Shown: piece by piece, positions 47,637 through 64,000 of the stretch
How positions within the stretch are numbered: position 1 is the stretch's first letter
Layout: every line of letters starts with the position of its first letter
The notes under the pieces: generated by a model
The model's database searches: none
The model's input: the letters and a program-made list of their open reading frames with translations, nothing else
Told to the model about the DNA's origin: nothing
Source of the DNA: Rhodothermales bacterium
Lineage (GTDB): Bacteria > Bacteroidota > Rhodothermia > Rhodothermales > JANQRZ01
Direction: 5' to 3'
NCBI GenBank assembly: GCA_039944855.1
Contig: JBDUXZ010000031.1
Coordinates: 62,001-126,000, forward strand
Length of the DNA: 64,000 nt
Program-made: the position numbers and the translations under genes

Positions 47637-48794
47637 TTATTCGGAAGTGGCGGGCGGGCCGGAGCCGGCGATGACTTCGGCGCCGACATCGTCGGTGCGG
47701 AAGGTGTACGCGATGGCCTCCATCTGGCGGAGGAATTCGCGCTTCTGCTCGCTCGTGTAGCGCGGGCCGTAGATCATCCCGTCGATGAGGTAGAACCGGC
47801 CGGTGTCCTCGTCGAAGAAGGCGTAGCTCACGAACGGGCCGCCCATCGCGTCGCCCGTCATCCGCCACGTCCCGCGCGTCTCGAGCGCGAAGCGGCCGGC
47901 GAGGCTGACGGTGTCGGTCTCGATGGGTCTGCGGACGAGGTCGCGGTCCTCGATGGCGATGTAGCTCTCGTCGAAGCTCCCGCGCACGAACTGCTCAGTG
48001 AGCCGGTTGCGGAGGGCGCGGACGGAGTCGGGGTGGAGCCGCTCCAGCCTCGGGTCCTCCTCGTAGTAGACGAAGAAGTCGCGCCACGAGTCCTGCCCGG
48101 CGAGGCGGCGGAAGCGGAGGAACGTGCCGCGCTCGCCGCGCTCGGTGAGGAACGTGGTGTCAGCGGCGACGACGTAGTCGTGCTGGATGTTGACGGTGAA
48201 GCCGTGCTCGTCGAGCAGGCGCTGCTCGACCTCGGTCTGCTGGCCTTTGTCGAACATGTCGGTGGTCAGCCGCTCACGGGCGAGGCGGGCGAACGAAGCG
48301 CGGAGGCGGTCGCCATTCGCGCGGATCTGCGCGGCGAGGACATCCTCGCTCGGGGCCGTGGCGTAGACGACGAGTTGGTCGCGCATCCACAGGTCGTCGC
48401 GCTCGATCACGCCCTGTCCGCCGCGGTCGAGCGCGGCGACGCCGGCCGAGTCGAGGCGGGCGCGGAGGAAGCGGGCCGTCGCCGTGGTGTCGGTGTAGGG
48501 CGCGGCGAAGACGACGCTATGCTGGCGCTGGATGCCATCGAGGGCGTAGTCGGAGAGCGACTGGCGCGAGAGCGTGAAGGCCGGCGTCGGCTGCGGGAAC
48601 GTCAGCGCCTCGCGGCCGAGCGTCGCGCGGAGCGCCTCGCCGACGGGCCCGTTCCACGTCGCGGAATCGGTGACGACCATGACGTCGCCCTCGGCGCCGA
48701 CGGCGAGCGGCTTGTAGTTCGTGATCTCGCGGCACCCTCCGAGGAGCACGACGAGGCTGAGGGCCGAAGCGAGGAGGAGCGGGAGTCGGTTCAT
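47637..48794 (-). CDS. DUF4837 family lipoprotein
   Basis: 385 residues from ATG 48794: lipoprotein signal [20 protein letters not shown], then the DUF4837 pattern ([67 protein letters not shown]). Bacteroidota family of unknown function, probably outer-membrane associated. Its ATG overlaps the trpA stop (ATGA), so it is translationally coupled to trpA. Confidence 0.85.
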
Positions 48795-49615
48795 GCGTGC
48801 GAGACGGTGGGTCCGAATTTCAGTTCGTGCGCCCATGCGTGGATGCGGTCCAGCCGCTCGGGCTCGGTCAGCGCCGGGTCGTCCCAGAGCGCTTCGGCCG
48901 TGCGGATGAGCGCGCTGCCGACGATGAAGCCGTCGGTGTGGGCGCTGAGGCGGCGGGCGTCCGCGTGCGTCTGTATCCCAAACCCGACGAGGAGCGGATT
49001 GTTGTCGACGAGGGCGCGGGTGCGGGCCAAATACGCGGAGACTTGATCTAACCCCCCGATTTGCTGGCCTGTGAGCCCGGCCACGGAGACGGCGTAGACG
49101 AACGCCGTCGCCCGCTGGTCCACGAGCCGAACGCGCTCGGCCGCCGTGTTGGGCGCGACGAGGAACACGAGCCCGAGGCCGGCTTCGGCGGCGGCGTCTT
49201 CGATCACGTCGGCCTCTTCGGGAGGAAGGTCGGGGAGGATGAGCCCATCTACGCCCGAAGACCGCGCGGCGCGGCAGAAGTTGCTCACGCCGTAGCGGAG
49301 GACGGGGTTGACGTAGCCCATCAGGAGCAGCGGCGTCTCGCTGTGGGCGCGGAACGCCTCGGCCGTGCGGAAGGCATCGTCCATCGTTACGCCGTGACTG
49401 AGGGCACGCTCGGACGCGTGTTGGATCGGGAGTCCCTCGGCGAGCGGGTCGGAGAACGGCATCCCGAGCTCGATGAAGTCGGCCCCGGCCTCGTCCACGG
49501 CGCGGAGGATGGGGAGCGTGGCGTCGGGGTGCGGGAAGCCGTTCGTGAGGAACAGCCCCATCGCCTTTTCGCCGCGCGCGCGGCAGGCCTCGATCGTCGT
49601 CTGGAGCCGGGTCAT
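48791..49615 (-). CDS. trpA: Tryptophan synthase alpha chain
   Basis: Cleaves indole-3-glycerol phosphate to indole, which passes to TrpB. 274 residues from ATG 49615. Catalytic Glu49 is in [12 protein letters not shown] at the standard number, but the second catalytic acid, Asp60 in the usual FSDPLADGP, is Glu60 here (FSDPLAEGL). The phosphate loop [13 protein letters not shown] and GFIVGSALI are normal. Its start overlaps the GNAT gene (ATGA) and its stop overlaps the DUF4837 start. Confidence 0.93.
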
Positions 49616-50058
49616 CGCTGGTAAAGGGTGGGGCGGTCGATGACCATGAAGCGTTCGGGGAAGGGGGCGCGGACGAAGCCGACTTTTTCGTAGACGCCGT
49701 GCGCGTCCTGCGTCGTGAGGAGCCACCGGCGGAGGCCCTGCAGGTCGGGGTGATCGAGCACGCACGCGGTCAGCCAGACGCCGAGCCCCCGGCCGCGGTA
49801 GGCTTCGAGCACGTACACGTCGCAGAGGTACGCGAACGTCGCGCGGTCCGTGACGACGCGGGCGAAGCCGACTTGGGCGTCGCCGTCGTACAGCCCGACG
49901 CAGAGCGAGCCCCGGAGCGAGCGCTCGACGATGGCACGCGGAATCCCCTTCGCCCAGTACGAGCGTGTGAGATAGGCGTGGATCGCCGCCACGTCGAGCC
50001 GGGCCGGGTCGTCGGAGAGGGTGAGGCCGTCGCGGGTGCGGGTGAACACGTCCGTCAC
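49612..50058 (-). CDS. GNAT-family N-acetyltransferase inserted between trpB and trpA
   Basis: 148 residues, a single GNAT domain: [40 protein letters not shown] with the acetyl-CoA pyrophosphate loop YRGRGLG, and a C-terminal [16 protein letters not shown]. Start GTG 50058 overlaps the trpB stop by 4 bp (GTGA) and its stop overlaps the trpA start by 4 bp (ATGA). This tight coupling implies production in step with tryptophan synthase. Substrate unknown; an amine, amino acid or protein are all possible. Confidence 0.87.
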
Positions 50059-51266
50059 AGGTTCGCGGCGATCGTCGCCATGTCTTTGTCGCCGCGGCCG
50101 GAGACGTTGACGACGACGATTTCGTCGGCGCGCATCTCGGCGCAGAGCGTGGGGAGCACGGCAATCGCATGCGCCGTTTCGAGCGCGGGGATGATGCCCT
50201 CCGTCCGCGCGAGCAGCTTTACGCCGTCGAGCGCGTCGGCATCGGAGACGGCGCGGTACTGGACGCGGCCGGTGTCTTTGAGGTGGCTGTGCTCCGGCCC
50301 GACGCCGGGGTAGTCGAGCCCGGCCGAGATCGAGTGGGCGATTTCGACCTGCCCGGCCGCGTCCTGCAGCAGGTAGCTCATCGCGCCGTGGAGCACGCCC
50401 GGCTGCCCGAGCGTGAGCGTCGCCGCGTGCCGCTGCCCGGCCGCCACGTCGAGCCCCTCGCCCGCCGCCTCGACGCCGACGAGCCGCACGCCCTCGTCGT
50501 CGAGGAACGGGAAGAAGATGCCGAGCGCGTTCGAGCCGCCGCCGACGCACGCCACGACGACGTCGGGCGTCTCGCGGCCCTCTTCGTGGAGCAACTGCCG
50601 CCGCGTCTCCTCGCCGATCACGCGGTGGAAGTCGCGCACCATCATCGGGTACGGGTGCGGCCCGACGACCGAGCCGATGATGTAAAACGTGTCGTCAGGG
50701 TTCGAGACCCAGTCGCGGATGGCCTCGTTCGTGGCGTCCTTCAGCGTCCGGCTCCCGCTCGTCGCGGGGCGGACTTCGGCGCCGAGGAGTTGCATCCGCT
50801 GAACGTTGAGGTGCTGCCGCTCGATGTCCTCGGACCCCATGTAGACGATGCAGTCGAGCCCGAACTTCGCGCAGACCGTCGCGGTGGCAACGCCGTGCTG
50901 CCCGGCGCCGGTCTCGGCGATGATCCGCCGCTTGCCCATCCGCCGGGCGAGGAGGACTTGACCAATCGTGTTGTTGATCTTGTGCGCGCCCGTGTGGCAG
51001 AGGTCCTCGCGCTTGAGGTAGATCTTCGGCCCCCCGAGCTTCGCCGTCAACCGGTCCGCGAACGATAGGGGCGTCGGGCGGCCGACGTAGTCGCGCAGCA
51101 GGTCCGCCACGTCGCGCTGGAAGCCAGGATCGTCTTTCGCCTCGGCGTACGCCGCTTTCAGCTCCGCCAAGACGGGGATGAGGATTTCGGGCACGAACGC
51201 GCCGCCGTAGGCGCCGAAGCGCCCGCGCTCGTCGGGGGCGGCGTATTGAGTTGTCGTCGTCTGCAT
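50055..51266 (-). CDS. trpB: Tryptophan synthase beta chain
   Basis: Pyridoxal-phosphate enzyme that condenses indole and serine to tryptophan. 403 residues from ATG 51266 ([22 protein letters not shown]), the TrpB1 type. [19 protein letters not shown] carries the PLP lysine; [20 protein letters not shown] and [19 protein letters not shown] follow, with [12 protein letters not shown] near the end. Downstream gene overlaps by 4 bp. A 64-bp spacer with a palindromic repeat separates it from trpF. Confidence 0.96.
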
Positions 51267-51277
51267 CAGATCGGGAG

Positions 51278-51305
51278 GTAGAGACGCAGCATGCTGCGTC
51301 TGTAC
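51278..51305. repeat. 28-nt palindromic repeat between trpF and trpB
   Basis: GTAGAGACGCAGC and GCTGCGTCTGTAC pair over an AT centre. It lies inside the trp operon, so it could shape mRNA stability rather than stop transcription. Confidence 0.7.
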
Positions 51306-51330
51306 GGGGCGGCGCACGATGATAGGTTGG

Positions 51331-51975
51331 TCACTCGGCCTCGACGGCGGCACGGTAGGCCTCGAAGAAGTCGTAGAGCTTGTCGAAGTCCTTCACGCCG
51401 GGCGCGGACTCGACGGACGACGAGAGGTCGACGGCGAACGGCCGCATCGTGTCGATGGCCTCCTGCACGTTCGCGGCGTCGATGCCGCCGGCGAGGAAGA
51501 GGGGGAACTCCCCGGCGAGGTCGCGCGCGAGCCGCCAGTTGAAGCTCTCGCCCGTGCCGCCCCAGAGGCTCGTCTTGTGCGTGTCGAGCAGGAAGAAGTC
51601 GGCGATGCCCGCGTACGGCAGCATCAGCGCGCGGAGTTGCTCGGACGACGCATCGTGCTGGACCCGGAACGACTTGATCGTCGGAACCTCGACGGCGGCA
51701 ACTGTCTCCGGCGTCTCGTGCCCGTGGAGTTGGGCAAGCGTGAACCCGACCTCGGCGCAGCGCGCGTTGATCGTCTCGGCGTTCTCGTTCACGAACACGC
51801 CGACGGACTCGATGCCGTCGAGCCAGCCGATGATCTCCTTCGCGGCTTTCGGCTCGACCCAGCGCGGGCTGTCGGGGTACTGGATGAAGCCGAGGTAGTC
51901 GGCCCCGGCGCCGGCGCAGTAGCGCGCGTCGGCGAGTTGGGTGATGCCGCAGATTTTGACTTTCGTTCGGGACAT
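51331..51975 (-). CDS. trpF: Phosphoribosylanthranilate isomerase
   Basis: 214 residues, TIM barrel, third step of the pathway after anthranilate phosphoribosylation. [27 protein letters not shown] carries the catalytic Cys; [18 protein letters not shown] carries the catalytic Asp; [16 protein letters not shown] is the phosphate loop, followed by [15 protein letters not shown]. Its ATG follows the trpC stop directly, with no gap. Confidence 0.95.
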
Positions 51976-52803
51976 TTAGCTGGCGAGCCGGAGGGCGGGG
52001 TTGAGGAGGTCAGCGGTGTCGCGGCGGAGCTGGCGGAGCGCGTCGCCGGGCTGCCGGCTCCGCATGAACGTCTCGCCGATGAGGACGGCGTCGATCCCCC
52101 GGCGGCGGAGCATGGCGAGGTCGGCGGCGTCTCGGAGCCCGCTCTCGGCCACGCGCACGATGTGGGCGGGCACATCCGCGAGCAGGCGCGGCGCGCGCTC
52201 CACGTCCACGTCGAAGGTCTTGAGGTCGCGGTTGTTGACGCCGAGGATCTGAACCCGGTCGAGGTCGAGCGCAGCGAGTTCGTCCGCGTCGTGAACCTCG
52301 ACCAGACATTCGAGCCCGAGGTCGGTGGCGGCGGCGTGGAGGTCACGAAGCTCGGCCGGGTCGAGCGCGGCGGCGATGAGGAGCACGGCGTCGGCGCCGT
52401 ACGCGCGAGCCTCGACGAGCTGGTACGTGTCGACGACGAAGTCCTTCCGCAGGAGCGGGAGGTCGGCGGCGAGGCGGACCTTCGCGAGCACGTCGAGCGA
52501 GCCCTGGAAGTGCGTCGGCTCAGTGAGGACGGAGATCGCGGCGGCGCCGGCCCGCTTGTACGCCCGCGCGGTGTCGACGGGGTGGAAGTCTTCGGCGATC
52601 ACGCCCTGCGACGGCGAGGCCTTTTTGATCTCGGCGATGATGGCGGGCGGCTGCGCGGAGCCGGAGCGGCGGAGGGCCTCGGCGAGCGAGAGGGTCGGCG
52701 CGCGGAACGCCGGGCGTGCTTCGAGCGCAGCGACGGGCACCTCCGATTTGCGGCGGAGCACGAGGGCGCGGGTATCGGCGAGGATCTGGTCGAGAATCGT
52801 CAT
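51976..52803 (-). CDS. trpC: Indole-3-glycerol-phosphate synthase
   Basis: 275 residues from ATG 52803 (MTILDQILADTRALV). Catalytic lysine and substrate loop IIAEIKKASPSQGVIAEDF, then SVLTEPTHFQGS, LPLLRKDFVVDTYQL, ILGVNNRDLKTFDVD and ESGLRDAADLAML with the phosphate site. Stand-alone TrpC, not fused to TrpF as in enterobacteria, though the two genes abut. A 115-bp spacer lies upstream. Confidence 0.95.
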   Translation of the reverse strand: MTILDQILADTRALVLRRKSEVPVAALEARPAFRAPTLSLAEALRRSGSAQPPAIIAEIKKASPSQGVIAEDFHPVDTARAYKRAGAAAISVLTEPTHFQGSLDVLAKVRLAADLPLLRKDFVVDTYQLVEARAYGADAVLLIAAALDPAELRDLHAAATDLGLECLVEVHDADELAALDLDRVQILGVNNRDLKTFDVDVERAPRLLADVPAHIVRVAESGLRDAADLAMLRRRGIDAVLIGETFMRSRQPGDALRQLRRDTADLLNPALRLAS

Positions 52804-52918
52804 GGCAGGAGCAGCGAGAGCGAGCGGAGAGAAGGAGCAGAGCACGTCAGGCGAGGCGCACGGGGCGCCATCGCTCGTTCGTAAATCGCTCGCTGTGGAT
52901 CTGCTCTCGGGGCATGGG

Positions 52919-53962
52919 TCAGGCCGCGGCCGTCGCGTAGTCGTTGGAAGACGCGACGAGCGCGTCGAGCTTGGCGAGGGCGGCGCCGGAGTCGATGCTC
53001 TCGCGGGCGGCGTCGAGGCAGGCGCCGAGCCAGCCGTGGCTGCCGCTCGCGAGGAGGGCGTAGGCGGCGTTGAGGAGGACGATGTCGCGTTGCGGCCCGG
53101 CCTCGCCCTTCAAAATGGAGCGGACGATCTCGGCGTTCTCCTCCGCCGTCCCGCCCGAAAGATCGTCGGCGCGGACCCGGCTCAGTCCGTAGTGCTCGGG
53201 CGTGACGACCTGCTGCATCAGCGTCTGCGCGCCGAAGGGGTCGAGTTCGCTGCCCGTCTGGTAGACCGTCGTCGGGCTTGTGGTGCTCAGCTCGTCGAGG
53301 CCGTCGTGGGCGTAGATGCAGACGACGTGCTCGGAGCCGAGGCGGACGAGGATCTGCGCCATCATCTTCGCCGTGGCGTCGCTGAACGCGCCGACGAGCT
53401 GGCGCTTGACGCCGGCCGGGTTACAGAGCGGGCCGAGGATGTTGAAGAACGTCCGCACGCCGAGCGCGCGCCGCACCGGCATCACGTGCTTGAGCGCGGG
53501 GTGGTAGAGCGGGGCGAAGAGGAACGCGATCCCGGCCTCGCGCAGGCACGCCTCGACGCCGTCTTTCCCGAGCGACGTATCGACACCGAGCGCGGCCAAT
53601 ACGTCCGCCGAGCCGGCGTTCGACGACACCGCCCGGTTGCCGTGCTTCGCCACGACGACGCCCGCGCCGGCCGCGACGAACGACGCGCTCGTCGAGATGT
53701 TGAACGAGCCGGCGTGGTCGCCGCCCGTCCCGCACAGGTCGATGGCCCCCTCGGGCGCCTCGACCGTCACGGCGTACTCGCGCATCACACGCGTGAAGCC
53801 GGTCAGCTCGTCGAGCGTCTCGCCCCGGCTGCGGAGACCGAGCAGGAGCGCGGCGATCTCTTCGGAGGAGGCGTTGCCCTTGAGCAGCAGGTGCATCACG
53901 GCCTCGGCCTGCGACTCGGTGAGGGTGTCGCCTTCGGCGATGATCTGGAGGTATTCGCGCAA
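52919..53962 (-). CDS. trpD: Anthranilate phosphoribosyltransferase
   Basis: 347 residues. Glycine-rich PRPP loop DLCGTGGDHAGSFNISTSASFV, AKHGNRAVSSNAGSADVLAALG, a later FAPLYHPALKHVMPVRRALG and TFFNILGPLCNPAGVKRQ. The start is a TTG at 53962, giving the normal N-terminus (REYLQIIAEGDTLT); no ATG or GTG fits nearby. Stand-alone enzyme, not fused to TrpG. Two hairpin repeats occupy the 69-bp spacer to trpG. Confidence 0.94.
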   Translation of the reverse strand: MREYLQIIAEGDTLTESQAEAVMHLLLKGNASSEEIAALLLGLRSRGETLDELTGFTRVMREYAVTVEAPEGAIDLCGTGGDHAGSFNISTSASFVAAGAGVVVAKHGNRAVSSNAGSADVLAALGVDTSLGKDGVEACLREAGIAFLFAPLYHPALKHVMPVRRALGVRTFFNILGPLCNPAGVKRQLVGAFSDATAKMMAQILVRLGSEHVVCIYAHDGLDELSTTSPTTVYQTGSELDPFGAQTLMQQVVTPEHYGLSRVRADDLSGGTAEENAEIVRSILKGEAGPQRDIVLLNAAYALLASGSHGWLGACLDAARESIDSGAALAKLDALVASSNDYATAAA

Positions 53963-53980
53963 AACGGTGGGGAGGTTGAG

Positions 53981-54010
53981 GTACGGGCGACCGGCCGGTC
54001 GCCCTGTTAC
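53981..54010. repeat. Palindromic repeat between trpG and trpD (first of a pair)
   Basis: GTACGGGCGACCGG and CCGGTCGCCC pair perfectly in the core, ending GTTAC. It overlaps the next copy by five bases. Confidence 0.7.
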
Positions 54011-54034
54011 GGGCAGGCAGGAGACCCGCCCCTA
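54006..54034. repeat. Palindromic repeat between trpG and trpD (second of a pair)
   Basis: GTTACGGGCAGG... with ...CCCGCCCCTAC. The stem is weaker than in other copies but the outer arms fit the family. Confidence 0.5.
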
Positions 54035-54619
54035 CGGAATGGGGGCGAAGGCGTCGACGCGCTGAAGCCAGTTGGCGATGAGCTTCGGGCCCTCGACGGT
54101 CAGCACGCTCTCGGGGTGAAACTGGATGCCTTCGATGGGGAAGGCGCGGTGCCGGAGGCCCATGATGACGCCGTCGTCGGTCTCGGCCGAGACTTCGAGT
54201 TCATCGGGCAGCGTGGTGCGTTCGACGGCGAGCGAGTGGTAGCGCGTGGCGATGAAGTCCTGCGGCACGTCCTCAAACACCGTCTGCCCGTCGTGGTGAA
54301 TCTGGCTCGTCTTGCCGTGCATCAGCGTCGGCGCGTGGACGACGCGCCCGCCGAACACTTCGCCAATCGCCTGGTGTCCGAGGCACACGCCGAGGATGGG
54401 CGTCGTCTCGCCGAACGTGCGGATCAGGTCTTCGGAGATGCCCGCGTCGGCCGGGCGGCCGGGGCCGGGCGAGATGAGGATCGCCCGCGGCGCGAGGTCG
54501 CGCACGTCGTCCACCGTGAGGGCATCGTTACGGACCACGCGGTAGTCGTCCGTCCCCGCACCGACGAGGTGGACGAGGTTATACGTAAACGAGTCGTAGT
54601 TGTCGACGATGAGGATCAC
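54032..54619 (-). CDS. trpG: Anthranilate synthase component II (glutamine amidotransferase)
   Basis: 195 residues, class I amidotransferase supplying ammonia to TrpE. Cys79 in ILGVCLGHQAIGEVFGG is the nucleophile; GIQFHPESVLTVEGP holds the His-x-Glu pair; ILISPGPGRPADAG is the oxyanion region. Start GTG 54619. It may also serve PabB (18124-19914), which lacks its own partner here. It follows trpS after a 151-bp spacer full of repeats. Confidence 0.94.
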   Translation of the reverse strand: MILIVDNYDSFTYNLVHLVGAGTDDYRVVRNDALTVDDVRDLAPRAILISPGPGRPADAGISEDLIRTFGETTPILGVCLGHQAIGEVFGGRVVHAPTLMHGKTSQIHHDGQTVFEDVPQDFIATRYHSLAVERTTLPDELEVSAETDDGVIMGLRHRAFPIEGIQFHPESVLTVEGPKLIANWLQRVDAFAPIP

Positions 54620-54653
54620 AGGCGGTTCAGTCGAGAGCGCTTCAATTCAGATT

Positions 54654-54691
54654 GTCATTGCGAGGAGGCCGCAGGCCGACGCGGCAATCTC
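54654..54691 (+). repeat. REP-like element of the CATTGCGAGGAGG type (direct copy)
   Basis: GTCATTGCGAGGAGG ... GACGCGGCAATCTC, a repeat type known from many bacterial genomes. A second copy lies inverted at 54715-54766. Confidence 0.75.
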
Positions 54692-54714
54692 CCGATTTAG
54701 GCAATCGGTCTGCT

Positions 54715-54766
54715 GAAGCGAGGAGGTTGCCACGTCACTCGGCTACGCCTCGCTCCTCGCAACGAC
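54715..54766 (-). repeat. REP-like element of the GTTGCGAGGAGC type (inverted copy)
   Basis: The minus strand reads GTCGTTGCGAGGAGCG ... GACGTGGCAACCTCCTCGC. It ends 4 bp from the trpS stop codon and faces the copy at 54654. Confidence 0.75.
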
Positions 54767-54770
54767 AGGT

Positions 54771-55991
54771 TTATTGGTCGTCTTGCCATGTAGGTTGCTT
54801 CTCTTCCTCTCGGTCAACGGGCCCAGCAGTGTCCATCGGCTTAGCGGAGTCATCAAAAGACTCTTCCAACACACTCTCTCTGGAAGCTTCTTGGTCCGAA
54901 TGATCTGCTGGAGCACGCTCTGTAGCGTATTCAGAATCTTGGCGCTCAGCTGGGGCAGAGGTCGGTGCAAGCGTCGTGACGAGACCGACGCGCTCGCGGA
55001 CGCGCTCCATCACGTCAGTCGCGCGGGCCTGGGCGCGGAGGGCGCCGTCGCGGAGCACGTCGCGGACGTAGTCACGGCGCTGGTCCAACTCTTTCCGCCG
55101 CTCGCGAGCTTCGGCGAAGTAGGCCGTGATGAGGCCGAGGAGTTCTTTTTTGGCGTGGCCGTAGCCGTAGCCGCCGGCGCGGTACGCCGCCGCGATCTCC
55201 TCGCGCTTCGCGTCATCGGCGAAGAGCTTGAGGAGGGCGAAGACGTTGTCGGCGTCGGGGTCCTTCGGCTCTTCGAGCGGCGTCGAGTCGGTGACGATCG
55301 CCATCACCTTCTTCTTCAGCGCCTTGCCCTCGTCGAAGATGCCGATCGTGTTGCCGTACGACTTCGACATCTTCTGCCCGTCGAGGCCGGGGACGACGGC
55401 AACGTCGTCGAGAATCAGCGGGTCGGGGACGGGGAAGAGCGGGGTGTCCCCGCAGAACTCGGCGTTGAACTTCTGCGCGAGGTCGCGGCTGATCTCGATG
55501 TTCTGCTTCTGGTCCTGCCCGACAGGCACGAGCAGAGGCCGGTCCGGCTGTCCGTAGATCAGGATGTCGGCCGCTTGCAGCACGGGGTACGTGAAGAGCC
55601 CGCCGTTCGCTGTGATGCCCTGCGCGACCTTGTCCTTGTACGACACGCCCTTTTCGAGTTGGCTGACGGGCGTGAGGCAGAGGAGGATCCACGCGAGCTC
55701 TGTCACCTGCGGCACGTCGCTCTGGAGGAAGAGCGCCGCCGCGTCGGGGTCGAACCCGAGCGCGAGGTAGTCGAGCGCTACGTCGAGGCTGTACCGCTCC
55801 AGCGCCGCCGCGTCCCGCACCGTCGTGAGGGCGTGGTAGTTGACGATGAAGTAGAACGCCTCGTGCCGCCGCGCCGGGTCGTTCCCGATCGCGATGTGCT
55901 GGCGGAGCGCGCCGAAGTAGTTGCCGAGGTGGAGTGTCCCCGACGGCTGGATGCCGGAGACGACGACGGCGTCGGAAGGAGAAGCGGGCAT
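54771..55991 (-). CDS. trpS: Tryptophanyl-tRNA synthetase with acidic C-terminal extension
   Basis: Charges tRNA-Trp. 406 residues: class I HIGH-type motif QPSGTLHLGNYFGAL at the N-terminus, QKQNIEISRDLAQKFN and KMSKSYGNTIGIF; the normal enzyme ends near LRAQARATDVMERVRERVGL, about residue 340. A further 65 residues (342-406) are acidic and low in complexity (ESVLEESFDDSAKP, DREEEKQPTWQDDQ) and are encoded by AT-richer DNA ending next to REP elements. Its ATG overlaps the stop of the preceding four-helix gene (ATGA), placing trpS in the trp operon. Confidence 0.94.
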   Translation of the reverse strand: MPASPSDAVVVSGIQPSGTLHLGNYFGALRQHIAIGNDPARRHEAFYFIVNYHALTTVRDAAALERYSLDVALDYLALGFDPDAAALFLQSDVPQVTELAWILLCLTPVSQLEKGVSYKDKVAQGITANGGLFTYPVLQAADILIYGQPDRPLLVPVGQDQKQNIEISRDLAQKFNAEFCGDTPLFPVPDPLILDDVAVVPGLDGQKMSKSYGNTIGIFDEGKALKKKVMAIVTDSTPLEEPKDPDADNVFALLKLFADDAKREEIAAAYRAGGYGYGHAKKELLGLITAYFAEARERRKELDQRRDYVRDVLRDGALRAQARATDVMERVRERVGLVTTLAPTSAPAERQDSEYATERAPADHSDQEASRESVLEESFDDSAKPMDTAGPVDREEEKQPTWQDDQ

Positions 55992-56590
55992 CAGCGCGGC
56001 GGGATATCGATGGCGGGCTGCTTCATCGCGCCGGCGTGGTGCTCGTCGTGCGCGAGGTCGACGGGCGTTTCGGTAGCATCGTCTACCGGCACGGAGGTGG
56101 CGCGCGTCGAGCGGGAGTCGGGCCGGCGCATCCTCGTCACGATGGGGTGGAGCACGCCGAGGCGGGCCTCGCTGCCGGTGACGTTGTTCTCCAGAATCGC
56201 CGTCGTGCGGAGCTGGTGGTGGGCGAGGCCGAGCGTATCGTTGAGCGCGTTGCGGTAGGCCCGCTCCGCGTCGTCGAGCGCGTGGATGATCTCGGCATCG
56301 GTGCCGCCGAGGCGGACGTCGGGGTCGAGGTCGGTGCCGTTGGGCGGCGTGCCGGCGAGGGAGAAAATCGTCTCCTTCAGCTTGGCGAGCTCGGTCCGCG
56401 CGCGGTTCATCACGTCATTGAGACGGTCAGCGAGGCTGCGGTCGCCGAGGTGACGGATGGCGGCATCGTAGGCGTGGAGGAGGTCGTGGTGCCGCCGCAC
56501 GAGCGGCATGAGGGCGTCGACGCTCTCTTCGCGCGTCATCGAGCGGCCGGCGCCGCCGCGGAACATCACGGACTTGACGAGGGGATACAT
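55991..56590 (-). CDS. Hypothetical four-helix protein between trpE and trpS
   Basis: 199 residues from ATG 56590 (MYPLVKSVMFRGGAGRSMTR). Amphipathic helices dominate (ALMPLVRRHHDLLHAYDAAI, LADRLNDVMNRARTELAKLK, IIHALDDAERAYRNALNDTL), as in ferritin-like DUF2383-type bundles; the family link is tentative. The C-terminal 40 residues are charged and probably disordered, ending HDEHHAGAMKQPAID. It sits 22 bp after trpE and overlaps trpS by 4 bp, so it is firmly in the trp operon. Function unknown. Confidence 0.75.
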   Translation of the reverse strand: MYPLVKSVMFRGGAGRSMTREESVDALMPLVRRHHDLLHAYDAAIRHLGDRSLADRLNDVMNRARTELAKLKETIFSLAGTPPNGTDLDPDVRLGGTDAEIIHALDDAERAYRNALNDTLGLAHHQLRTTAILENNVTGSEARLGVLHPIVTRMRRPDSRSTRATSVPVDDATETPVDLAHDEHHAGAMKQPAIDIPPR

Positions 56591-56612
56591 GGCGATGGGG
56601 GTTGGGGGGAGG

Positions 56613-58163
56613 TCAGAGGAGGCCGTCGGCGGCGACGCGCATGGCGTCGAGGAGGGCGCGGGCTTTGGTACGGGTTTCTTCGTATTCGAGGCCGGGGTCG
56701 CTGTCGGCGACGATGCCGGCACCGGCCTGGATGTAGGCGGTCTGCCCACGGATCAGCATCGTGCGAATCGCGATGCACGTGTCCATGTTTCCCGAGAAAT
56801 CGGCGTAGCCGACGGCGCCGGCGTAGACGCCGCGCTTGCCGGTCTCGAGCTCATCGATCAGCTCCATCGCGCGGACCTTCGGCGCGCCCGAAACGGTCCC
56901 GGCGGGGAAGCACGCCGCGAGCACGTCGAAGGTCCGCTGCTCGTCGGCGACTTCGCCGCTCACCGACGAGACGAGGTGCATCACGCGGGCGTAGCGCTCG
57001 ACCGTCGCGTAGCGCTCGACCTCGACGGTCCCGACGCGGCAGGCGCGGCCGAGGTCGTTCCGCCCGAGGTCGACGAGCATGAGGTGCTCGGCCCGTTCTT
57101 TCGGGTCGGCGACGAGTTCGGCTTCGAGCGCCGCATCTTCTTCCGGCGTATCGCCGCGCCGCCGCGTCCCGGCGATGGGGAGGACTTCGGCGCGGCGCGA
57201 TCCTTCGGGTGTTCCCTCGACGCGGACGAGCACTTCGGGCGACGAGCCCGCGAGCTGGAAGCCGTCGAAGTCGAGGAAGAAGAGGTACGGCGAGGGGTTC
57301 ACCTGCCGGAGCGCGCGGTAGAGGTTGAACGGGTCGCCGGCGAACGGGAGCGCGAACCGCTGCGAGAGGACGACCTGGAAGATGTCGCCCTCGACGATGT
57401 GCGTCTTCGCCCGCCGCACCGACGCCTCGAACTCGGCCCGCGTGACGTTCGACTGCGGGTCGCGGTCGCGGAGGGCGACGGGCTCGGGGAGCATGATCGG
57501 CCCCGTCGTGAGCCCGGCTTCGAGGAGGTCGAGCCGGTCGCGGGCGTCGTCCCACGCATACGCGAGGTCGGTGTCGTCGTCGACGAAGACCGTCGCCATG
57601 AGGACGAGCTGGCGGGCGACGTGGTCGAAGGCGGCGACGGTGTCGTAGAACGCCCACAGCGCGTCGGGCACGTCGTCGCCGGGGATCGTGTCGGGCGGCG
57701 CGTTGCCGAGGCGTTCGAGCGAGCGCACCGTGTCGTACCCCATGAACCCGACGGCACCGCCGGTGAAGCGCGGCAGCCCGGGCTGCTTGACCTCTTCATA
57801 GGCGTCGACGAGCCGCGCCATCACCTCGTACACGGTGCCTTTTTCGGGGCGAGGCGGGGCACCGTCGCCCAGCGAGAGGTCGCCGCCACGGCGGACCCAG
57901 ACATCGTCTCCGCGCGCTTCGACGATCTGATACGGCCGCGTGCCGAGGAACGAGTACCGCCCGAGCCGCTCGCCGCCCTCGACGCTTTCGAGCAGGAAGC
58001 TGAACGCGCCGGGCTCGCGGAGCGCGAGGAACGCCGCGACCGGCGTGAGCAGGTCGGCGCTGCGGCGCCGGCAGACGGGCACGGCGAGGAGGCGAGCCTC
58101 GGAGCGGCGCGCGCCGGAGCGGCGGCGATCGGCGATGAGGGAGCGGAAGGTCGGGAAGTCCAT
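56613..58163 (-). CDS. trpE: Anthranilate synthase component I
   Basis: First committed step of tryptophan synthesis (chorismate to anthranilate). 516 residues. The feedback-inhibition motif LLES (57-60) in FSFLLESVEGGERLGRYSFLG marks a Trp-binding site. Chorismate domain: VEGDIFQVVLSQRFALPF, PSPYLFFLDFDGFQLAGSSPE, PIAGTRRRGDTPEEDAALEA, ERAEHLMLVDLGRNDLGRAC and GTVSGAPKVRAMELIDELE. The ATG directly follows the T7 run of a terminator hairpin, and no Shine-Dalgarno is visible between them. Head of the operon, under the attenuator described upstream. Confidence 0.95.
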   Translation of the reverse strand: MDFPTFRSLIADRRRSGARRSEARLLAVPVCRRRSADLLTPVAAFLALREPGAFSFLLESVEGGERLGRYSFLGTRPYQIVEARGDDVWVRRGGDLSLGDGAPPRPEKGTVYEVMARLVDAYEEVKQPGLPRFTGGAVGFMGYDTVRSLERLGNAPPDTIPGDDVPDALWAFYDTVAAFDHVARQLVLMATVFVDDDTDLAYAWDDARDRLDLLEAGLTTGPIMLPEPVALRDRDPQSNVTRAEFEASVRRAKTHIVEGDIFQVVLSQRFALPFAGDPFNLYRALRQVNPSPYLFFLDFDGFQLAGSSPEVLVRVEGTPEGSRRAEVLPIAGTRRRGDTPEEDAALEAELVADPKERAEHLMLVDLGRNDLGRACRVGTVEVERYATVERYARVMHLVSSVSGEVADEQRTFDVLAACFPAGTVSGAPKVRAMELIDELETGKRGVYAGAVGYADFSGNMDTCIAIRTMLIRGQTAYIQAGAGIVADSDPGLEYEETRTKARALLDAMRVAADGLL

Positions 58164-58196
58164 AAAAAAAGCCCACTGCTTGGGAGGGCAGCGGGC
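58164..58196 (-). terminator. Attenuator terminator of the trp operon
   Basis: On the minus strand GCCCGCTGC (58196-58188) pairs with GCAGTGGGC (58179-58171), 9 bp with one G-U pair and an 8-base loop, followed by seven T residues that touch the trpE ATG. This is a textbook intrinsic terminator placed before, not after, a gene. Confidence 0.85.
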
Positions 58197-58221
58197 GGCG
58201 AAGTCGTCGTGCTCGAAAGCG

Positions 58222-58308
58222 TTACGCGACGGCGCACGGGCAGCCCACGGTCCGGGGGGAGATCCACCAGAGCCAGGAATGGGCGGTATGGGCGTGCAGG
58301 CGCGTCAC
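58222..58308 (-). CDS. trpL: Candidate trp leader peptide (TrpL), 28 residues
   Basis: A short frame from GTG 58308 to TAA 58224-58222, directly after an in-frame TGA. Codons 12-15 read Trp-Leu-Trp-Trp (TGG CTC TGG TGG), three Trp in four codons. The stop lies 26 bases before the attenuator stem. GTGGGC (58248-58243), just after the Trp codons, can pair either with GCCCAT upstream (58293-58288 or 58284-58279) or with GCCCGC of the terminator stem, as a classic 1:2 versus 2:3 switch requires. Start codon choice and lack of a good Shine-Dalgarno are the weak points. Confidence 0.75.
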   Translation of the reverse strand: MTRLHAHTAHSWLWWISPRTVGCPCAVA

Positions 58309-58315
58309 GGCTCAA

Positions 58316-58345
58316 AGGATACGCCCGAACGAAGCCGTGATGCAA
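58316..58345 (-). promoter_or_regulatory. Candidate promoter of the trp operon
   Basis: Minus strand: TTGCAT (58345-58340), 18 bp, TATCCT (58321-58316). The start point would be near 58309, almost at the leader GTG, so the leader would be translated from a very short or leaderless 5' end. The whole 241-bp divergent spacer 58164-58404 is taken up by this promoter, leader and attenuator. Confidence 0.35.
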
Positions 58346-58404
58346 CCGCATCTTTTCGCGAGCGGCTCCGAAAGAGGAGGCACCTTCCACCAGCCGCCCG
58401 ACCG

Positions 58405-59712
58405 ATGCATCGTTTGTTTCCTCTCGCGTTGTCGTTGCTCCTCGCCGTGCCCGCCACCGCCCAGACGTCGGAGGACTACGTCCGTGTCCCCTTCAACGTC
58501 TCGCTCTGGCGCGGGGTCAGCCTCGGCGATGCCGTCGCGGGCGATACGAGCCGGCGTGTGCTGCACCACGTCTCGCTAAATCTCCCGCTCGGACAGGCCG
58601 ACCGGCTCGAAGGCGTCGCCGTCGGTGTGTTCGGGACGGTGTACGAGGAGTCGGCGTACGGGCTGCAAGTTGCCGGACTGGGGAACGTGGCGGGGGAGGA
58701 GGCGGAGGCGATTCAGGTCGCCGGGTTGGCGAACGTCGTCGGCAAGCACATGCGCGGGGTGCAGGCGTCGGGCCTCGCGAACGTCGTCGGCGAGCGCATG
58801 AGCGGGGTGCAGGTGTCGGGCTTGGCGAACGTGGTCGGCGAGCGTGGCGGGTTCGTGCAGGCGGCGGGGTTGGCAAACGTCGCGGGAGAGCGGTTCGGAG
58901 GCGTGCAGGCGGCCGGGCTGGCGAACATCACGGGCGACGCGTTCTGGGGCGTGCAAGCGTCGGGGCTGGCGAACATCGCGGGCGAGGAGGCCGTCGGCAT
59001 CCAATCGGCCGGGCTCGCGAACATCGTGGGCGACGAGATGCGCGGGGTGCAGTCGGCGGGCCTCGCGAACGTCACGGGCGATGACATGGTCGGGATTCAG
59101 GGGGCCGTGTTCAACGTCGTCGGCGGGACGCTGCGCGGGGTGCAGGCGGGCGTCGTCAACGTCGCGGCGGAGTCGGCGGGGCTGCAACTCGGTATCGTGA
59201 ACGTGGCGGGCGAGCAGCGCGGGATCCCAGTCGGGCTCTACTCGAGGACGGACGGCGTGCCGGTCCGGCTCGACGTGTGGACGGACGAGACGGCGGCGCT
59301 CCACGTCGGCATCCGGTCGGGAAGCGCGACGGTGGCGAACTACGTCGGCGTCAGCGCGCGACCGTTCAGCGGGGCGGCGTATCGGTGGAGCGTCTTCGCC
59401 GGGCTCGGGGTGGAACGGTCGCTCGGCCCGCGCACGGCGTGGGGGGGCGACGCCTTCGTGCACGGCCTCTTCGCCGAGGACTTCGGCGACGTCGGCGGCG
59501 CGCTCGTCCGCCTCCGCGCGACGCTGACGCAGGCCCTCAGCGACCGCGTCGCCGTCTTCGGCGGCCCCGCCCTCAGCCTCCTCCTCTCCGACGACTTCGA
59601 CGGCGACGGCCTCGCCCCGTTCTCCGTCTACGACGACGTCACCGACGACGGGTTCGTCCGCCTCTGGCCCGGCCTCGAAGCCGGCCTCCGCCTCCGCATC
59701 ACCGACGGCTAA
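58405..59712 (+). CDS. Surface-repeat protein of the LA_2272 type
   Basis: 435 residues. Signal peptide MHRLFPLALSLLLAVPATAQ. From residue 88 a 16-residue unit of the form QxxGLANVxGExxxGV occurs nine times in near-perfect register (88-231), then three shortened copies (15, 14 and 14 residues). The regular G-L-A-N-V rungs suggest a beta-helix or beta-solenoid. A C-terminal domain of about 150 residues (SVFAGLGVERSLGPRTAWGG, FGGPALSLLLSDDFDGDG) looks like a small outer-membrane barrel and ends in a strand-like LRLRI. Divergent from trpE. Confidence 0.8.
   Translation: MHRLFPLALSLLLAVPATAQTSEDYVRVPFNVSLWRGVSLGDAVAGDTSRRVLHHVSLNLPLGQADRLEGVAVGVFGTVYEESAYGLQVAGLGNVAGEEAEAIQVAGLANVVGKHMRGVQASGLANVVGERMSGVQVSGLANVVGERGGFVQAAGLANVAGERFGGVQAAGLANITGDAFWGVQASGLANIAGEEAVGIQSAGLANIVGDEMRGVQSAGLANVTGDDMVGIQGAVFNVVGGTLRGVQAGVVNVAAESAGLQLGIVNVAGEQRGIPVGLYSRTDGVPVRLDVWTDETAALHVGIRSGSATVANYVGVSARPFSGAAYRWSVFAGLGVERSLGPRTAWGGDAFVHGLFAEDFGDVGGALVRLRATLTQALSDRVAVFGGPALSLLLSDDFDGDGLAPFSVYDDVTDDGFVRLWPGLEAGLRLRITDG
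58666..59226 (+). repeat. 48-nt tandem coding repeats
   Basis: Twelve in-frame units encode QxxGLANVxGExxxGV; the first nine are 48 nt each, the last three slightly shorter. They are diverged at the DNA level but in frame, so selected as protein. Confidence 0.85.
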
Positions 59713-59758
59713 TGCCGCTCCCGCCAGCGTTTCTTCTTCGAGCCCAACCCACAAAACA

Positions 59759-59830
59759 AGTCATCCCCGCGCAGGCGGGGACCCAGCGCCGAAGCTAGCC
59801 GGTGGGTCCCCGATCAAGTCGGGGATGACT
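59759..59830. repeat. Cruciform-like repeat of the GTCATCCCCGC type
   Basis: AGTCATCCCC at the left pairs with GGGGATGACT at the right; inside are CCCGC/GCGGG and GGGACCCA/TGGGTCCC stems. It is a dispersed repeat type known from many bacteria and here lies between convergent genes, where it could act as a terminator. Confidence 0.75.
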
Positions 59831-59847
59831 CGCTTATACGGCTGGCC

Positions 59848-60450
59848 TTACAGCGCAGCCTCGCCCTCTGAGAAGGCTGTTGCCACGCCGGGGTTCTGTT
59901 CGACAAACGCTCTAAGCGCATCTGAGGCCTCACTACGCTGAGACTGGCGCATCGTGCGAAAGTCGTTCGTTAGCGCTTGAATCGTCCGGATCGGCCCCCA
60001 AGGAATAGCCCACCATCCGAGCAGTGCTGTCATCAGCGCCGCACGCTTCGCCTGTGCCGCGAGACAAGCAGGGCAAGCAACGACGGTGCGCTTGTCGAGC
60101 GACGTAACCAGCACAAAGCTCTTAGCATCTGCGACCACGCCACCGTTGAGTGGGTGGTCGCTCTTGCCACACGCCGGACATCGTTGCTTCCGAACGGCCT
60201 CTACTAGGAGATCTAGATCGCGTCGTGAGAGCGAGCGGGTTTGCGCTTCTACTGCTCGCCCAACGGCGGAATTAATTCCGCGTGCGGTGAGCTCACTATT
60301 GAGTACCCGAAGTGCTTCTGGTGTGAGGTCGGCAGCTTCATGCAACGCAATTTGAAGCAGCCGCTCGTCTGGCATTCGGCGATAGTGCTCGGCGAGTTGC
60401 TCAGACACGGCTCCTTGAATGTCTAGATCAGAAAAAGCGAGGCCTTGCAT
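59848..60450 (-). CDS. Hypothetical zinc-ribbon membrane protein, AT-richer than its neighbours
   Basis: 200 residues, no signal. N-terminal helices (VSEQLAEHYRRMPDERLLQI, LTPEALRVLNSELTARGI) precede a zinc ribbon CPACG ... CPAC (four Cys, 36 residues between pairs), then one membrane helix (ALMTALLGWWAIPWGP). No named family recognised. Codon use and base composition are clearly less GC-rich than the genes on either side, and a repeat cluster lies at its 3' end, so recent acquisition is possible. Confidence 0.65.
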   Translation of the reverse strand: MQGLAFSDLDIQGAVSEQLAEHYRRMPDERLLQIALHEAADLTPEALRVLNSELTARGINSAVGRAVEAQTRSLSRRDLDLLVEAVRKQRCPACGKSDHPLNGGVVADAKSFVLVTSLDKRTVVACPACLAAQAKRAALMTALLGWWAIPWGPIRTIQALTNDFRTMRQSQRSEASDALRAFVEQNPGVATAFSEGEAAL

Positions 60451-60469
60451 TGCTACCGAGTTTAGCCTC

Positions 60470-61402
60470 TCACGAATCCTGCTTCGCCTCCTGAATGAGG
60501 GCGTCGAACGCTTCGAGCGGCTGGGCGCCGTTGACGAAGCGGCCGTTGACGAAGAAGCCCGGCGTGCCGGTCACGCCTAGCTCCTCGCCGAGCGCCATGC
60601 CTTCGGTGAGCGCGGCGACGGCCTGCTGGTGCGACGCGGCGGTCTGGTCCTCGGTGCACGTCGCCCACGCCTCCATGTCGAGGTCGGAGCCGGCGAGGTA
60701 GGCCCGGCTCTGCGCGATGACGTTGCCGGGGTTGAGCGTGCGCTGGTTGGCGAAGTAGTTGTCGTGGAGCGTCCAGAACGCGTCGCCGTCCTGCTGCGCG
60801 GCGCAGAGCGCGGCGATCGAGGCGGGCCGCGCCCACGGGTGGTTGCCGAGGGGGAACTGCACGTACACGAAGCGCACGTCCTCGGGATACTTCTCGATCA
60901 CCTGCTCGACCGTGCCGGCCGCGCGCGAGCAGTACGGGCACTGGAAGTCGGAGAACTCGACGATCGTCACCGGCGCGTCGGGGTTGCCGCGCACGGGGAG
61001 ATCCGACGTGGCGGCGACGAGCCGTTCGCCGCGCTCCTTCGCTTCGGTGAGGGCGGCCTGCTCGCGCTCCATGCGGGCGGCGGCGAGGTCGTCCGCCGAG
61101 CGGCTCACATCGACGGGGTCGGCCGAGACCATGTAGAGCTGCGTGTCGTCGTCGGTGACGAGGAAGAGCTGCGTCTGCTGGCCGTTGATCGTGAACGAGC
61201 CCTTGCTCAGCCCCTCGACCTCCGTCGGCTCGATGTCGCCGAGGTCGACGCGGTACTGCTGGAGTTGGGGGAACTCGTAGACGAGGTTGGCGAGGATACG
61301 CGCTTTGCGTTCGGCGGGCGTGGGCTCGCTCGCGGCCTGGCCGCAGGCGGTCTGCCCGAAGGCGAGGGCGACGAAGGTGAGGAGGAGGAACAGTCGGGTC
61401 AT
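60470..61402 (-). CDS. DsbA-family thioredoxin-fold protein, exported
   Basis: 310 residues from ATG 61402. Signal sequence LFLLLTFVALAFGQTACG; cleavage could be by either signal peptidase. Residues 25-130 form an unassigned N-terminal domain. The thioredoxin domain starts near 140 (VTIVEFSDFQCPYCSRAAG, active-site C155-P-Y-C158) and has the cis-Pro loop GVTGTPGFFVNGRF. The order of domains resembles periplasmic thiol oxidoreductases such as DsbC/BdbD. Expected to oxidise or isomerise disulfides of secreted proteins, of which this window encodes several Cys-rich examples. Confidence 0.88.
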   Translation of the reverse strand: MTRLFLLLTFVALAFGQTACGQAASEPTPAERKARILANLVYEFPQLQQYRVDLGDIEPTEVEGLSKGSFTINGQQTQLFLVTDDDTQLYMVSADPVDVSRSADDLAAARMEREQAALTEAKERGERLVAATSDLPVRGNPDAPVTIVEFSDFQCPYCSRAAGTVEQVIEKYPEDVRFVYVQFPLGNHPWARPASIAALCAAQQDGDAFWTLHDNYFANQRTLNPGNVIAQSRAYLAGSDLDMEAWATCTEDQTAASHQQAVAALTEGMALGEELGVTGTPGFFVNGRFVNGAQPLEAFDALIQEAKQDS

Positions 61403-61529
61403 CGGATCGGGCACGAGAGTGGGGAGGTCGGGGTGGGCAGAACGGGCGGGGGGCGCGTGGGAGTACGCGGCGGGGACCGCTCGGCGAGAAGGTACGGGTA
61501 AGAACAAGCGGAGCCGAAACGGCCCGCCG

Positions 61530-62171
61530 TTACGAGGCGCGCTCGGCGACGGCGATCATCGACTTGGCGAGCACCGGCACGCGGCCGACGCGCTCGAACG
61601 AGATCGCGCCGAAGCCCGACTGCCGCAGCAGCCGGCCGAGCGTCTCGACGGAGAAGAACTTGATGTGGCCGTGCTTCCACAGCGCGTTGAAATGGGTTTC
61701 CATCTTGCCCGTCAGCGCGAGCGCGAGGTTCTTGAGGTAGCCGTGGTACGGCGTCGAAACCACCGCGATGCCGCCGGGCGCAACGAGGTCGAAGAGCCGG
61801 TGCCCGAACACGTGGGGGTCGTAGAGGTGCTCGACGACTTCGAGCGAGAGCACGACGGGGAACGTGCCGTACGCGGCGGCGAGGTCGTCGTACGCCGAGC
61901 CGACATGGAGGGCGACCTCGGGGTAGGCCTGCCGGCCGCGCGCGATGCCATCCTCCGAGGGGTCCACGCCGGTCACGTCATATCCCTGCGCGGCGAAGTG
62001 CGCCGCGACGGACCCGTTCCCGCAGCCGAGGTCGAGCAGGCGGCATGCGGAGAGCCCGCGCCGCGCGAGGATGCGCTCGACGGCGGGCAGCAGGTAGGCG
62101 TGGTGGAAGCCGAGGTCGGCGGTTCCGTAGCCGTACGTGCCGGCGCTGAGATCCGGGGGGACGGACGTCAT
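61530..62171 (-). CDS. Class I SAM-dependent methyltransferase
   Basis: 213 residues from ATG 62171. Rossmann motif I RLLDLGCGNGSVAAHFAAQG, acidic motif II VTGVDPSEDGI, post-I FPVVLSLEVVEHLYDPHVFG and LVAPGGIAVVSTPY, the UbiG/Methyltransf_11 pattern. Near the C-terminus HGHIKFFSVETLGRLLRQSG is typical of methyltransferases acting on glycans or lipids. Its start overlaps the DinB gene end by 4 bp. Substrate unknown. Confidence 0.88.
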   Translation of the reverse strand: MTSVPPDLSAGTYGYGTADLGFHHAYLLPAVERILARRGLSACRLLDLGCGNGSVAAHFAAQGYDVTGVDPSEDGIARGRQAYPEVALHVGSAYDDLAAAYGTFPVVLSLEVVEHLYDPHVFGHRLFDLVAPGGIAVVSTPYHGYLKNLALALTGKMETHFNALWKHGHIKFFSVETLGRLLRQSGFGAISFERVGRVPVLAKSMIAVAERAS

Positions 62172-62662
62172 GAGAGCGCGTCGGCGGGGAGGATCTGGCC
62201 GAGGTGGTGGCGGAGGTGGGCGCCGTAGTCCCGCATCAGGTCGTCGAGCGTGGCGGGCACGCCGGCGGGGAACGGCTGCCACGCGATCTCGTCGAGGTTG
62301 TGGCGCTCGTACTCCCGGAACCGAACGGCGGCGGGCACGGCGTCCATCACGCGGACGAGGTGCGTGTTGTACATCCACCACAGCGTGACGAGCGACGGCC
62401 AGTCGGCCTCGCGGTAGCGCTGCGTCTGGACCCATGCGTCCTGCTCGTAGCCGGGGAAGACGAGGTCGTCCTGCTCCTGCGCGCGGACGAACCGCTGGTG
62501 GTTGTTCGCCGCCGAGTCGATGAGGTGGCCGAGGGTCTCCTTCGGCGACCAGCGGTTCGGGCTCGGGCGCTGCGTCACGTCATCGTCGGCGAGGCGGAGG
62601 AGGGCGGGGGCGGCCCGCTCCACGAGGTCGTGGAGGCGAGCGATGAAATCGTCGTCGGGCAT
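62168..62662 (-). CDS. DinB/YfiT-family protein
   Basis: 164 residues from ATG 62662, one base after the L,D-transpeptidase stop. Four-helix DinB bundle with His residues that bind a metal: HLIDSAANNHQRFVRAQ and YGAHLRHHLGQIL. Members are thiol-dependent metalloenzymes or of unknown role (family knowledge). An ATG at 62716 would add 18 residues overlapping the upstream gene and seems less likely. Translation is coupled to the methyltransferase gene. Confidence 0.85.
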   Translation of the reverse strand: MPDDDFIARLHDLVERAAPALLRLADDDVTQRPSPNRWSPKETLGHLIDSAANNHQRFVRAQEQDDLVFPGYEQDAWVQTQRYREADWPSLVTLWWMYNTHLVRVMDAVPAAVRFREYERHNLDEIAWQPFPAGVPATLDDLMRDYGAHLRHHLGQILPADALS

Positions 62663-62663
62663 A

Positions 62664-64000
62664 TCAATGGGCGGCGTCGAGTCCCAGCGCGTCAGCGAGT
62701 GCATCGTCGTGGTCATAGATGTCTTCGTGGAAGGCGAGGCCGGCGTCGCCGTCGGCCGTCGCGGTGAAATAGACGAGGTGGACGGGGAGCGGCTCGGGCA
62801 GGGCGACGGGCTGCGTGGCGTGGCCGTCGAGCGCGGCGTCCACCTTCTCCGGCGTCCACCCGTGCCAGCCGAGGAGCTGGCGGGCGAGCTCGCGGGGCTC
62901 GGCGGCGCGGATGCAGCCGTGCGAGTAGGCCCGGCTGGGGCGCGAGAAGAGGCGCTTCTGGTTCGTGTCGTGGATATAGATGTCGTCCGCGTTGGGGAAG
63001 GCGAACTTCACCTCGCCGAGCGGATTCGCCGGGCCGGCCGACTGCACGAAGCGGTACGTCCCTGCACCCGCCGTCTCCCAGTCCACCGTCGCCGGGTCCA
63101 CGCGGGCGCCGCCGCTGTAGACGTTGTAGCCCCGGCTCGTGAGGTACTCGGCCCCGTTGCGCCGCGCCAGCGGGATCGTCTCGACCGACGCGATCGACGG
63201 CGGCACGCCCCACGTCGGGTTGAAGATGACGGCCGTCATCGTGTCGCTGAAGACGGGCGTCTGCCAGCTCTTGAGCCCGATCACGACGTTCATCGCGAGC
63301 ACGTCCGCCCCGCCTTCGACGACGTGGAGGCGGAACGCGGGGAGGTTGACGAGGACGTGCCGCGCGCCGAGGTCGTCGGGCAGCCAGCGCCAGCGTTCGA
63401 GGTTGAGCACGATCGCGCGGGCCCAGTGTTCGGGCGAGCGGTTGAGCGCGTGCCGCGTCGCCGGGTCGAGGTCGCCCGTCGCGTCGAGTCCGTGTTGCTG
63501 CTGGAAGCGGCGGACGGCGTCGGCGACGTCACCGGAATAGGCGAAGGCGAGGCTGTCGGGCACGTCGGCGCTGTCGAGCGCGCCGAAGAGGGCGAGGCGC
63601 TGGCGGACGAGCGGGACGCGCACGCTCTCGTCGCCGAGCGTGAGGGTGCTGGCGGGGAGGATGATCGGGAGGTCGACATCCGCGGCGGCGCGGGAGCGGG
63701 CGAGCGCCGAGCGGAGGTGGTCGTATGCCGCGTGCGGAGGCCGCAGCCCGTCGAGTGCGCCGCCGAGGTCGCCCGATTCGAGCGCGGCGGAGAGGACGGT
63801 GGCGAGGTCGCGGTCGCGCCGCGTCGGGTACCACTTCTCGTAGAGCGTCGCCGGGTCGACACGCCCGCGCAGGAGGTGCTCGCCGAGGCGGAGGAAGGCG
63901 TCGGTGAGGAGGAGGTCGCGGTCGGCGACGGCCTCGGGCGAAGCTTCGGCCGAGGCGAACGCCGTGCGGAGTTGGGCGAGGCGGTACGCCTCGGGGTCGA
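62664..64000 (-). CDS. L,D-transpeptidase (YcbB-like), 5' end outside window
   Basis: Forms 3-3 peptidoglycan crosslinks or anchors proteins to the wall. The frame is open to the window edge, so the N-terminus is missing; 445 codons are present including the stop. Order: scaffold region (DRDLLLTDAFLRLGEHLLRG at the 5' edge), peptidoglycan-binding helix (AVRRFQQQHGLDATGDLDPA), then the YkuD catalytic domain with VVIGLKSWQTPVFSD, NPTWGVPPSIA and the nucleophile Cys in YSHGCIRAAEP at about 62917-62935. Periplasmic by family. The DinB gene begins one base after its stop. Confidence 0.93.
   Translation of the reverse strand, partial: DPEAYRLAQLRTAFASAEASPEAVADRDLLLTDAFLRLGEHLLRGRVDPATLYEKWYPTRRDRDLATVLSAALESGDLGGALDGLRPPHAAYDHLRSALARSRAAADVDLPIILPASTLTLGDESVRVPLVRQRLALFGALDSADVPDSLAFAYSGDVADAVRRFQQQHGLDATGDLDPATRHALNRSPEHWARAIVLNLERWRWLPDDLGARHVLVNLPAFRLHVVEGGADVLAMNVVIGLKSWQTPVFSDTMTAVIFNPTWGVPPSIASVETIPLARRNGAEYLTSRGYNVYSGGARVDPATVDWETAGAGTYRFVQSAGPANPLGEVKFAFPNADDIYIHDTNQKRLFSRPSRAYSHGCIRAAEPRELARQLLGWHGWTPEKVDAALDGHATQPVALPEPLPVHLVYFTATADGDAGLAFHEDIYDHDDALADALGLDAAH

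Follow-up and report, generated by a model that had tools for sequence, protein, structure and literature searches.

Upstream of trpE in this Rhodothermales genome, a short frame with three closely spaced Trp codons is followed by a hairpin and a run of seven T residues. Is this an attenuator, in which a ribosome on the leader reports the supply of charged tRNA-Trp to RNA polymerase, or do an accidental frame and an unrelated hairpin stand side by side? A complete trp attenuator had been proposed here in an earlier, sequence-only reading of the window (the whole stretch of 64,000 nucleotides that was analysed). On the strength of its anatomy, its conservation and the covariation observed in two competing helices (2:3 and 3:4), we consider it highly probable that the element acts as a ribosome-mediated transcription attenuator, responding to charged tRNA-Trp and governing the trpE operon. 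The features discussed below are collected in Table 1.

Table 1 Predicted elements of the trpE leader and neighbouring genes, in window coordinates.
Feature	Position	Strand	Remarks
Divergent upstream gene	58405–59712	+	signal-peptide-like start; tandem repeat GLANVxGxxxxGVQxA
−35-like TTGCAT	58340–58345	−	33 of 35 order relatives have TTG here
−10-like TATCCT	58316–58321	−	18-nt spacer to the −35; 7 nt separate it from the leader start codon
Leader peptide frame, GTG...TAA	58222–58308	−	28 sense codons, VTRLHAHTAHSWLWWISPRTVGCPCAVA; leaderless translation predicted
Region 1, copy a, GCCCAT	58288–58293	−	codons 6–7; complementary to region 2
Region 1, copy b, GCCCAT	58279–58284	−	codons 9–10; complementary to region 2
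Trp codons 12, 14 and 15 (TGG CTC TGG TGG; W-L-W-W)	58264–58275	−	presumed stalling site; single codons 58275–58273, 58269–58267, 58266–58264
Region 2, GTGGGC	58243–58248	−	antiterminator 5′ arm; 2:3 covariation in order
Region 3, GCCCGCTGC	58188–58196	−	common to antiterminator and terminator
Region 4, GCAGTGGGC	58171–58179	−	terminator 3′ arm; 3:4 covariation
T7 run of terminator	58164–58170	−	adjoins trpE ATG
trpE, anthranilate synthase component I	56613–58163	−	Pfam Anth_synt_I_N and Chorismate_bind
Frame between trpE and trpS	55991–56749	−	no Pfam match
trpS	54771–55991	−	ORF and Pfam
trpG-type GATase	54032–54619	−	ORF and Pfam
trpD	52919–53962	−	ORF and Pfam
trpC	51976–52845	−	ORF and Pfam
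trpF	51331–51975	−	ORF and Pfam
trpB	50055–51353	−	ORF and Pfam
GNAT acetyltransferase	about 49612–50085	−	ORF and Pfam
trpA	about 48791–49630	−	ORF and Pfam

Leader frame and competing helices

The leader frame was found as the sequence-only reading had described it, with 28 codons and a Trp-Leu-Trp-Trp cluster; it begins with GTG (58308) rather than ATG and ends in TAA, 25 nt before the terminator hairpin. The intrinsic terminator, whose T run had been said to touch the trpE start codon, is likewise present as a 9-bp hairpin (one G-U pair, 8-nt loop, −17.0 kcal/mol) from which seven T residues lead directly to the ATG at 58163. It is the top-ranking terminator-like site within 45000–64000, and the fold of the 185-nt region beats 199 of 200 shuffles (z −2.8). 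When the upstream stretch of the window was shuffled with dinucleotides preserved, a Trp-cluster frame with a terminator arose in 2 of 3000 sequences, and none of the 3000 contained a Trp-cluster frame anchored to a promoter. On such rates, a chance frame beside a chance hairpin was rejected.

The sequence-only reading had further proposed that GTGGGC, just after the Trp codons, can pair either with an upstream GCCCAT (1:2) or with GCCCGC of the terminator arm (2:3). In the window, the 2:3 helix consists of six pairs (GTGGGC:GCCCGC, −12.4 to −12.6 kcal/mol) and, taken alone, is no better than shuffles (z −1.3, p 0.12). Covariation was assessed in an alignment of 24 order leaders (A1), built by sequence and not fitted to structure. 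In A1, which omits the six-member family f13 and a few other leaders with a weaker 2:3 helix, 93.8% of cells are paired in the 3:4 terminator helix, with 20 double-change cells, and 85.7% in the 2:3 antiterminator helix, with 11. For both helices the paired percentage and the double-change count were each reached in 0 of 500 shuffles, and sliding the partners by 1–3 columns destroys both signals. Taken one by one, 20 of 36 sequences pair more strongly in 2:3 than their shuffles do (p ≤ 0.05), and in several relatives the helix extends to 9–10 perfect pairs at −20 to −25 kcal/mol. The 1:2 helix is complementary in the window and has 72% of its cells paired, above the slid controls, but exhibits no covariation beyond shuffles in A1. 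Of the two proposed pairings, 2:3 is supported by covariation; 1:2 is present as complementary sequence. The leader residues Val-Gly, encoded by GUGGGC, look fixed by RNA pairing and not by peptide function.

Conservation in the order, class and phylum

For comparison, the sequence upstream of trpE was collected within the order, in the remainder of the class and in further classes of the phylum. A Trp-cluster leader, together with either a terminator or the promoter geometry described below, precedes trpE at 43 of 61 order loci, at 32 of 33 loci in the rest of the class and at 9 of 20 chosen loci in other classes, these being counts of related genomes rather than of independent events, with a phylum sample picked for close trpE and not as a survey. 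The shuffle background of the scan is 0–0.3% per criterion. An outside control comprised 76 trpE loci whose labels name other groups; a promoter-anchored Trp leader was found at one of them (a Spirochaetales MAG), and at three of four loci labelled Bacteroidota or Balneola. Loss of the Trp codons or of the hairpin in relatives had been fixed beforehand as the outcome that would speak against attenuation; both are conserved in the order and the class, and the 2:3 and 3:4 helices covary in the order. Judged from these comparisons, the predicted attenuator is conserved across the class and in part of the phylum.

The leader scan fails at 18 of 61 order loci. At several of them (L023, L025, L030, L036, L039 and L048) another gene lies directly upstream of trpE, and three failing loci of one family (L043, L045 and L047) have a T-run hairpin before trpE. 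In L045 and L047 (family f4) the leader before trpE is reduced to a short frame with one Trp codon (MVKHYISSVVNWQSLLTT in L045), a kind of frame that the scan cannot count; it is possible that they represent an intermediate in the loss of attenuation. In G002, a genome of the same family as the window genome, the window-type trpE is absent. A WWW leader with a T-run hairpin and the promoter geometry described below (G002:C8, L134:503–712; TTGACA, 17 nt, TAGCTT, 7 nt, ATG) stands in that genome before a DAHP-synthase-like gene, which is followed by trpE- and trpG-like frames.

Could the hairpin instead be a constitutive terminator, or the terminator of an upstream transcript, with a Trp-rich frame beside it by chance? 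Terminator-like sites in the region are no commoner than in shuffles, so that one site alone means little, and the T run lies right at trpE. However, the upstream gene is divergent, with its signal-peptide-like start at 58405, and because it points away no upstream gene needs the hairpin as its terminator; moreover, the Trp frame and the hairpin recur as a pair in the class, and covariation links the hairpin to the antiterminator arm. With these observations in hand, this explanation is hardly credible. It is also very improbable that the leader RNA senses tryptophan as a T-box, through TRAP or as a Trp-binding riboswitch, with the frame incidental. Such routes do regulate trp in other bacteria, but no T-box or other convincing Rfam match was found in the window, neither mtrB (TRAP, PF02081) nor trpR (PF01371) has a match in the genome (98% complete), and conservation in the leader is highest at the Trp codons, with TGGTG invariant in the 24 leaders of A1. 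Control by T-box, TRAP or TrpR was rejected for lack of matches. A match to the gyrA RNA family on the opposite strand, at 13.7 bits against a cut-off of 45, is noise.

Promoter geometry and translation starts

The outer edge of the interval reported in the sequence-only reading (58345) is the first base of the −35-like TTGCAT, and the promoter was missed there. A sigma-70 scan of the E. coli type found no promoter, and the signal emerges only from an alignment of relatives anchored at the leader start. When the window was scanned for the same promoter just before ordinary genes, none was found. Of the 35 order relatives, 34 have TAnnnT (mostly TATCTT) at 6–11 nt upstream of the start codon of the leader, and the spacer between TTG and TAnnnT is 17–18 nt in 32 of the 33 that bear the TTG.

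Transcription usually starts about 7 nt downstream of a −10 element. With 6–10 nt between the −10 and the start codon, the 5′ end of the RNA would fall on the start codon or no more than about 3 nt from it. The geometry in the order suggests that the leader peptide is probably translated from leaderless RNA, starting at or near its first base. Attenuation could also be real without being leaderless, if the start site lay further upstream and the ribosome entered through a short 5′ UTR without a Shine-Dalgarno sequence. The gaps of 8–10 nt in several relatives (families f3 and f13) allow a 5′ UTR of a few bases, the promoter-to-start gap looks longer in members of RNA family RF01692 (see below), and the empty E. 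coli-type scan points the same way. Yet the full arrangement of TTG, 17–18 nt, TAnnnT and a start codon 6–10 nt later is present at 31 of 35 order loci, and promoter-anchored Trp frames occur at 37 of 61 order and 30 of 33 class loci compared with 0.05–0.25% in shuffles. We consider the upstream start site unlikely, and retain leaderless translation as the probable mode. Mapping has shown trp leaders to be leaderless in Sinorhizobium meliloti and Streptomyces lividans, so that a leaderless start would be new only for this phylum.

At trpE itself there is indeed no Shine-Dalgarno sequence, as the sequence-only reading had pointed out, but this is not odd, because Bacteroidetes, including Rhodothermus and Salinibacter, generally show none in their start-region logos (PMC3155529). 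A gap of 7 nt separates the hairpin from the trpE ATG, a spacing peculiar to the window genome (mostly 14–116 nt in other relatives), and in read-through RNAs the formed hairpin may hinder trpE translation too.

Proposed switch and known trp attenuators

The start site, ribosome stalling and response to tryptophan are predicted as follows. From its geometry, TTGCAT-18-TATCCT would start transcription at or a few bases from the GTG, and a ribosome would load on the leaderless RNA. With ample Trp-tRNA, the ribosome would reach the stop codon, with region 2 either covered or base-paired to region 1; the 3:4 hairpin would then form and RNA polymerase would halt in the T7 run just before trpE. With scarce Trp-tRNA, the ribosome would stall on codons 12–15 and mask region 1, and region 2 would pair with region 3 as soon as the latter is made, blocking the terminator.

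Folding under leader-stalled and leader-translated constraints, suggested in the sequence-only reading as a check, agrees with this scheme in part. With the ribosome on W12, P(2:3) is 0.97–0.98 before region 4 is made, and the same range is obtained for W12, W14 or W15 when all RNA up to and under the ribosome is blocked; a ribosome placed at the stop codon leaves 2:3 absent or in the minority, and 3:4 forms. When W14 or W15 is in the A site and pairing of the RNA upstream of the ribosome is permitted, region 2 goes back to pairing with the first GCCCAT copy. Once region 4 exists, however, the terminator is favoured at equilibrium in every state (P > 0.98), and antitermination must thus be kinetic. 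Kinetic switching is usual for attenuators.

The gene for tRNA-Trp synthetase, trpS, sits inside the trp cluster behind the attenuator. The enzyme that charges the sensed tRNA may therefore share the same control, and trpS is probably regulated by the attenuator as well.

Similar arrangements have been described elsewhere. Proteobacterial trpL (Escherichia coli, Sinorhizobium meliloti; RF00513) has the same Trp-rich leader, competing 2:3 and 3:4 helices and terminator before trpE, and in S. meliloti the trpL RNA begins at the trpL ATG (PMC7298713). The leader described here is longer (28 versus 14 codons), and its terminator touches trpE. The RF00513 model (Trp_leader, cut-off 41 bits) has no match in the window and only sub-threshold matches in order relatives. 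In Streptomyces lividans, trpL1 lies before trpE and combines a leaderless Trp-rich leader peptide (MFAHSTRNWWWTAHPAAH), as proposed here, with hairpins and a U-rich stretch (PMC8079986); it differs in belonging to the Actinobacteria, in its shorter leader and in preceding a monocistronic trpE. Since trp attenuation with a Trp-rich, even leaderless, leader is already known in Streptomyces and Sinorhizobium, the window element comes as no surprise.

Within the same phylum, Bacteroid-trp (RF01692) appeared in a 2010 list as a Bacteroidetes RNA with a probable cis-regulatory role (Weinberg et al. 2010, PMC2864571). All ten members inspected (L120–L129) carry a WWW leader peptide of the NNTWWWxNLR type with a T-run hairpin after it, so that RF01692 seems to be a trp attenuator of this type too. 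Its hairpin sequence differs (GGCTTGTC... versus GCCCRCTGC), and its model (cut-off 49 bits) has no match in the window, in the window's own genome or in the listed order genomes; of the 148 phylum genomes sampled, it passes in 11, which all belong to a single family (f31). The novelty was overstated in the sequence-only reading, as Bacteroid-trp, with its WWW-leader members, has been in Rfam since 2010. A literature search on trp attenuation in Salinibacter, Rhodothermus and Bacteroidetes, covering few of the subscription journals, returned nothing specific beyond Bacteroid-trp.

Leaderless leader-peptide attenuation might be the ancestral, phylum-wide trp control in Bacteroidota, with the promoter-to-start geometry kept across classes and Bacteroid-trp as one branch. 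Set beside ordinary Bacteroidota genes, which start translation without a Shine-Dalgarno sequence, this is a tentative reading that we are slightly more inclined to doubt than to accept. As far as can be told from sequence, the window element is ordinary in kind, real and conserved, works most likely by ribosome stalling and is little described in its lineage. A trp attenuator is thus documented across a class for which no study was found in the literature searched, and the results suggest that Bacteroid-trp is one member of a wider group of such attenuators within the phylum.
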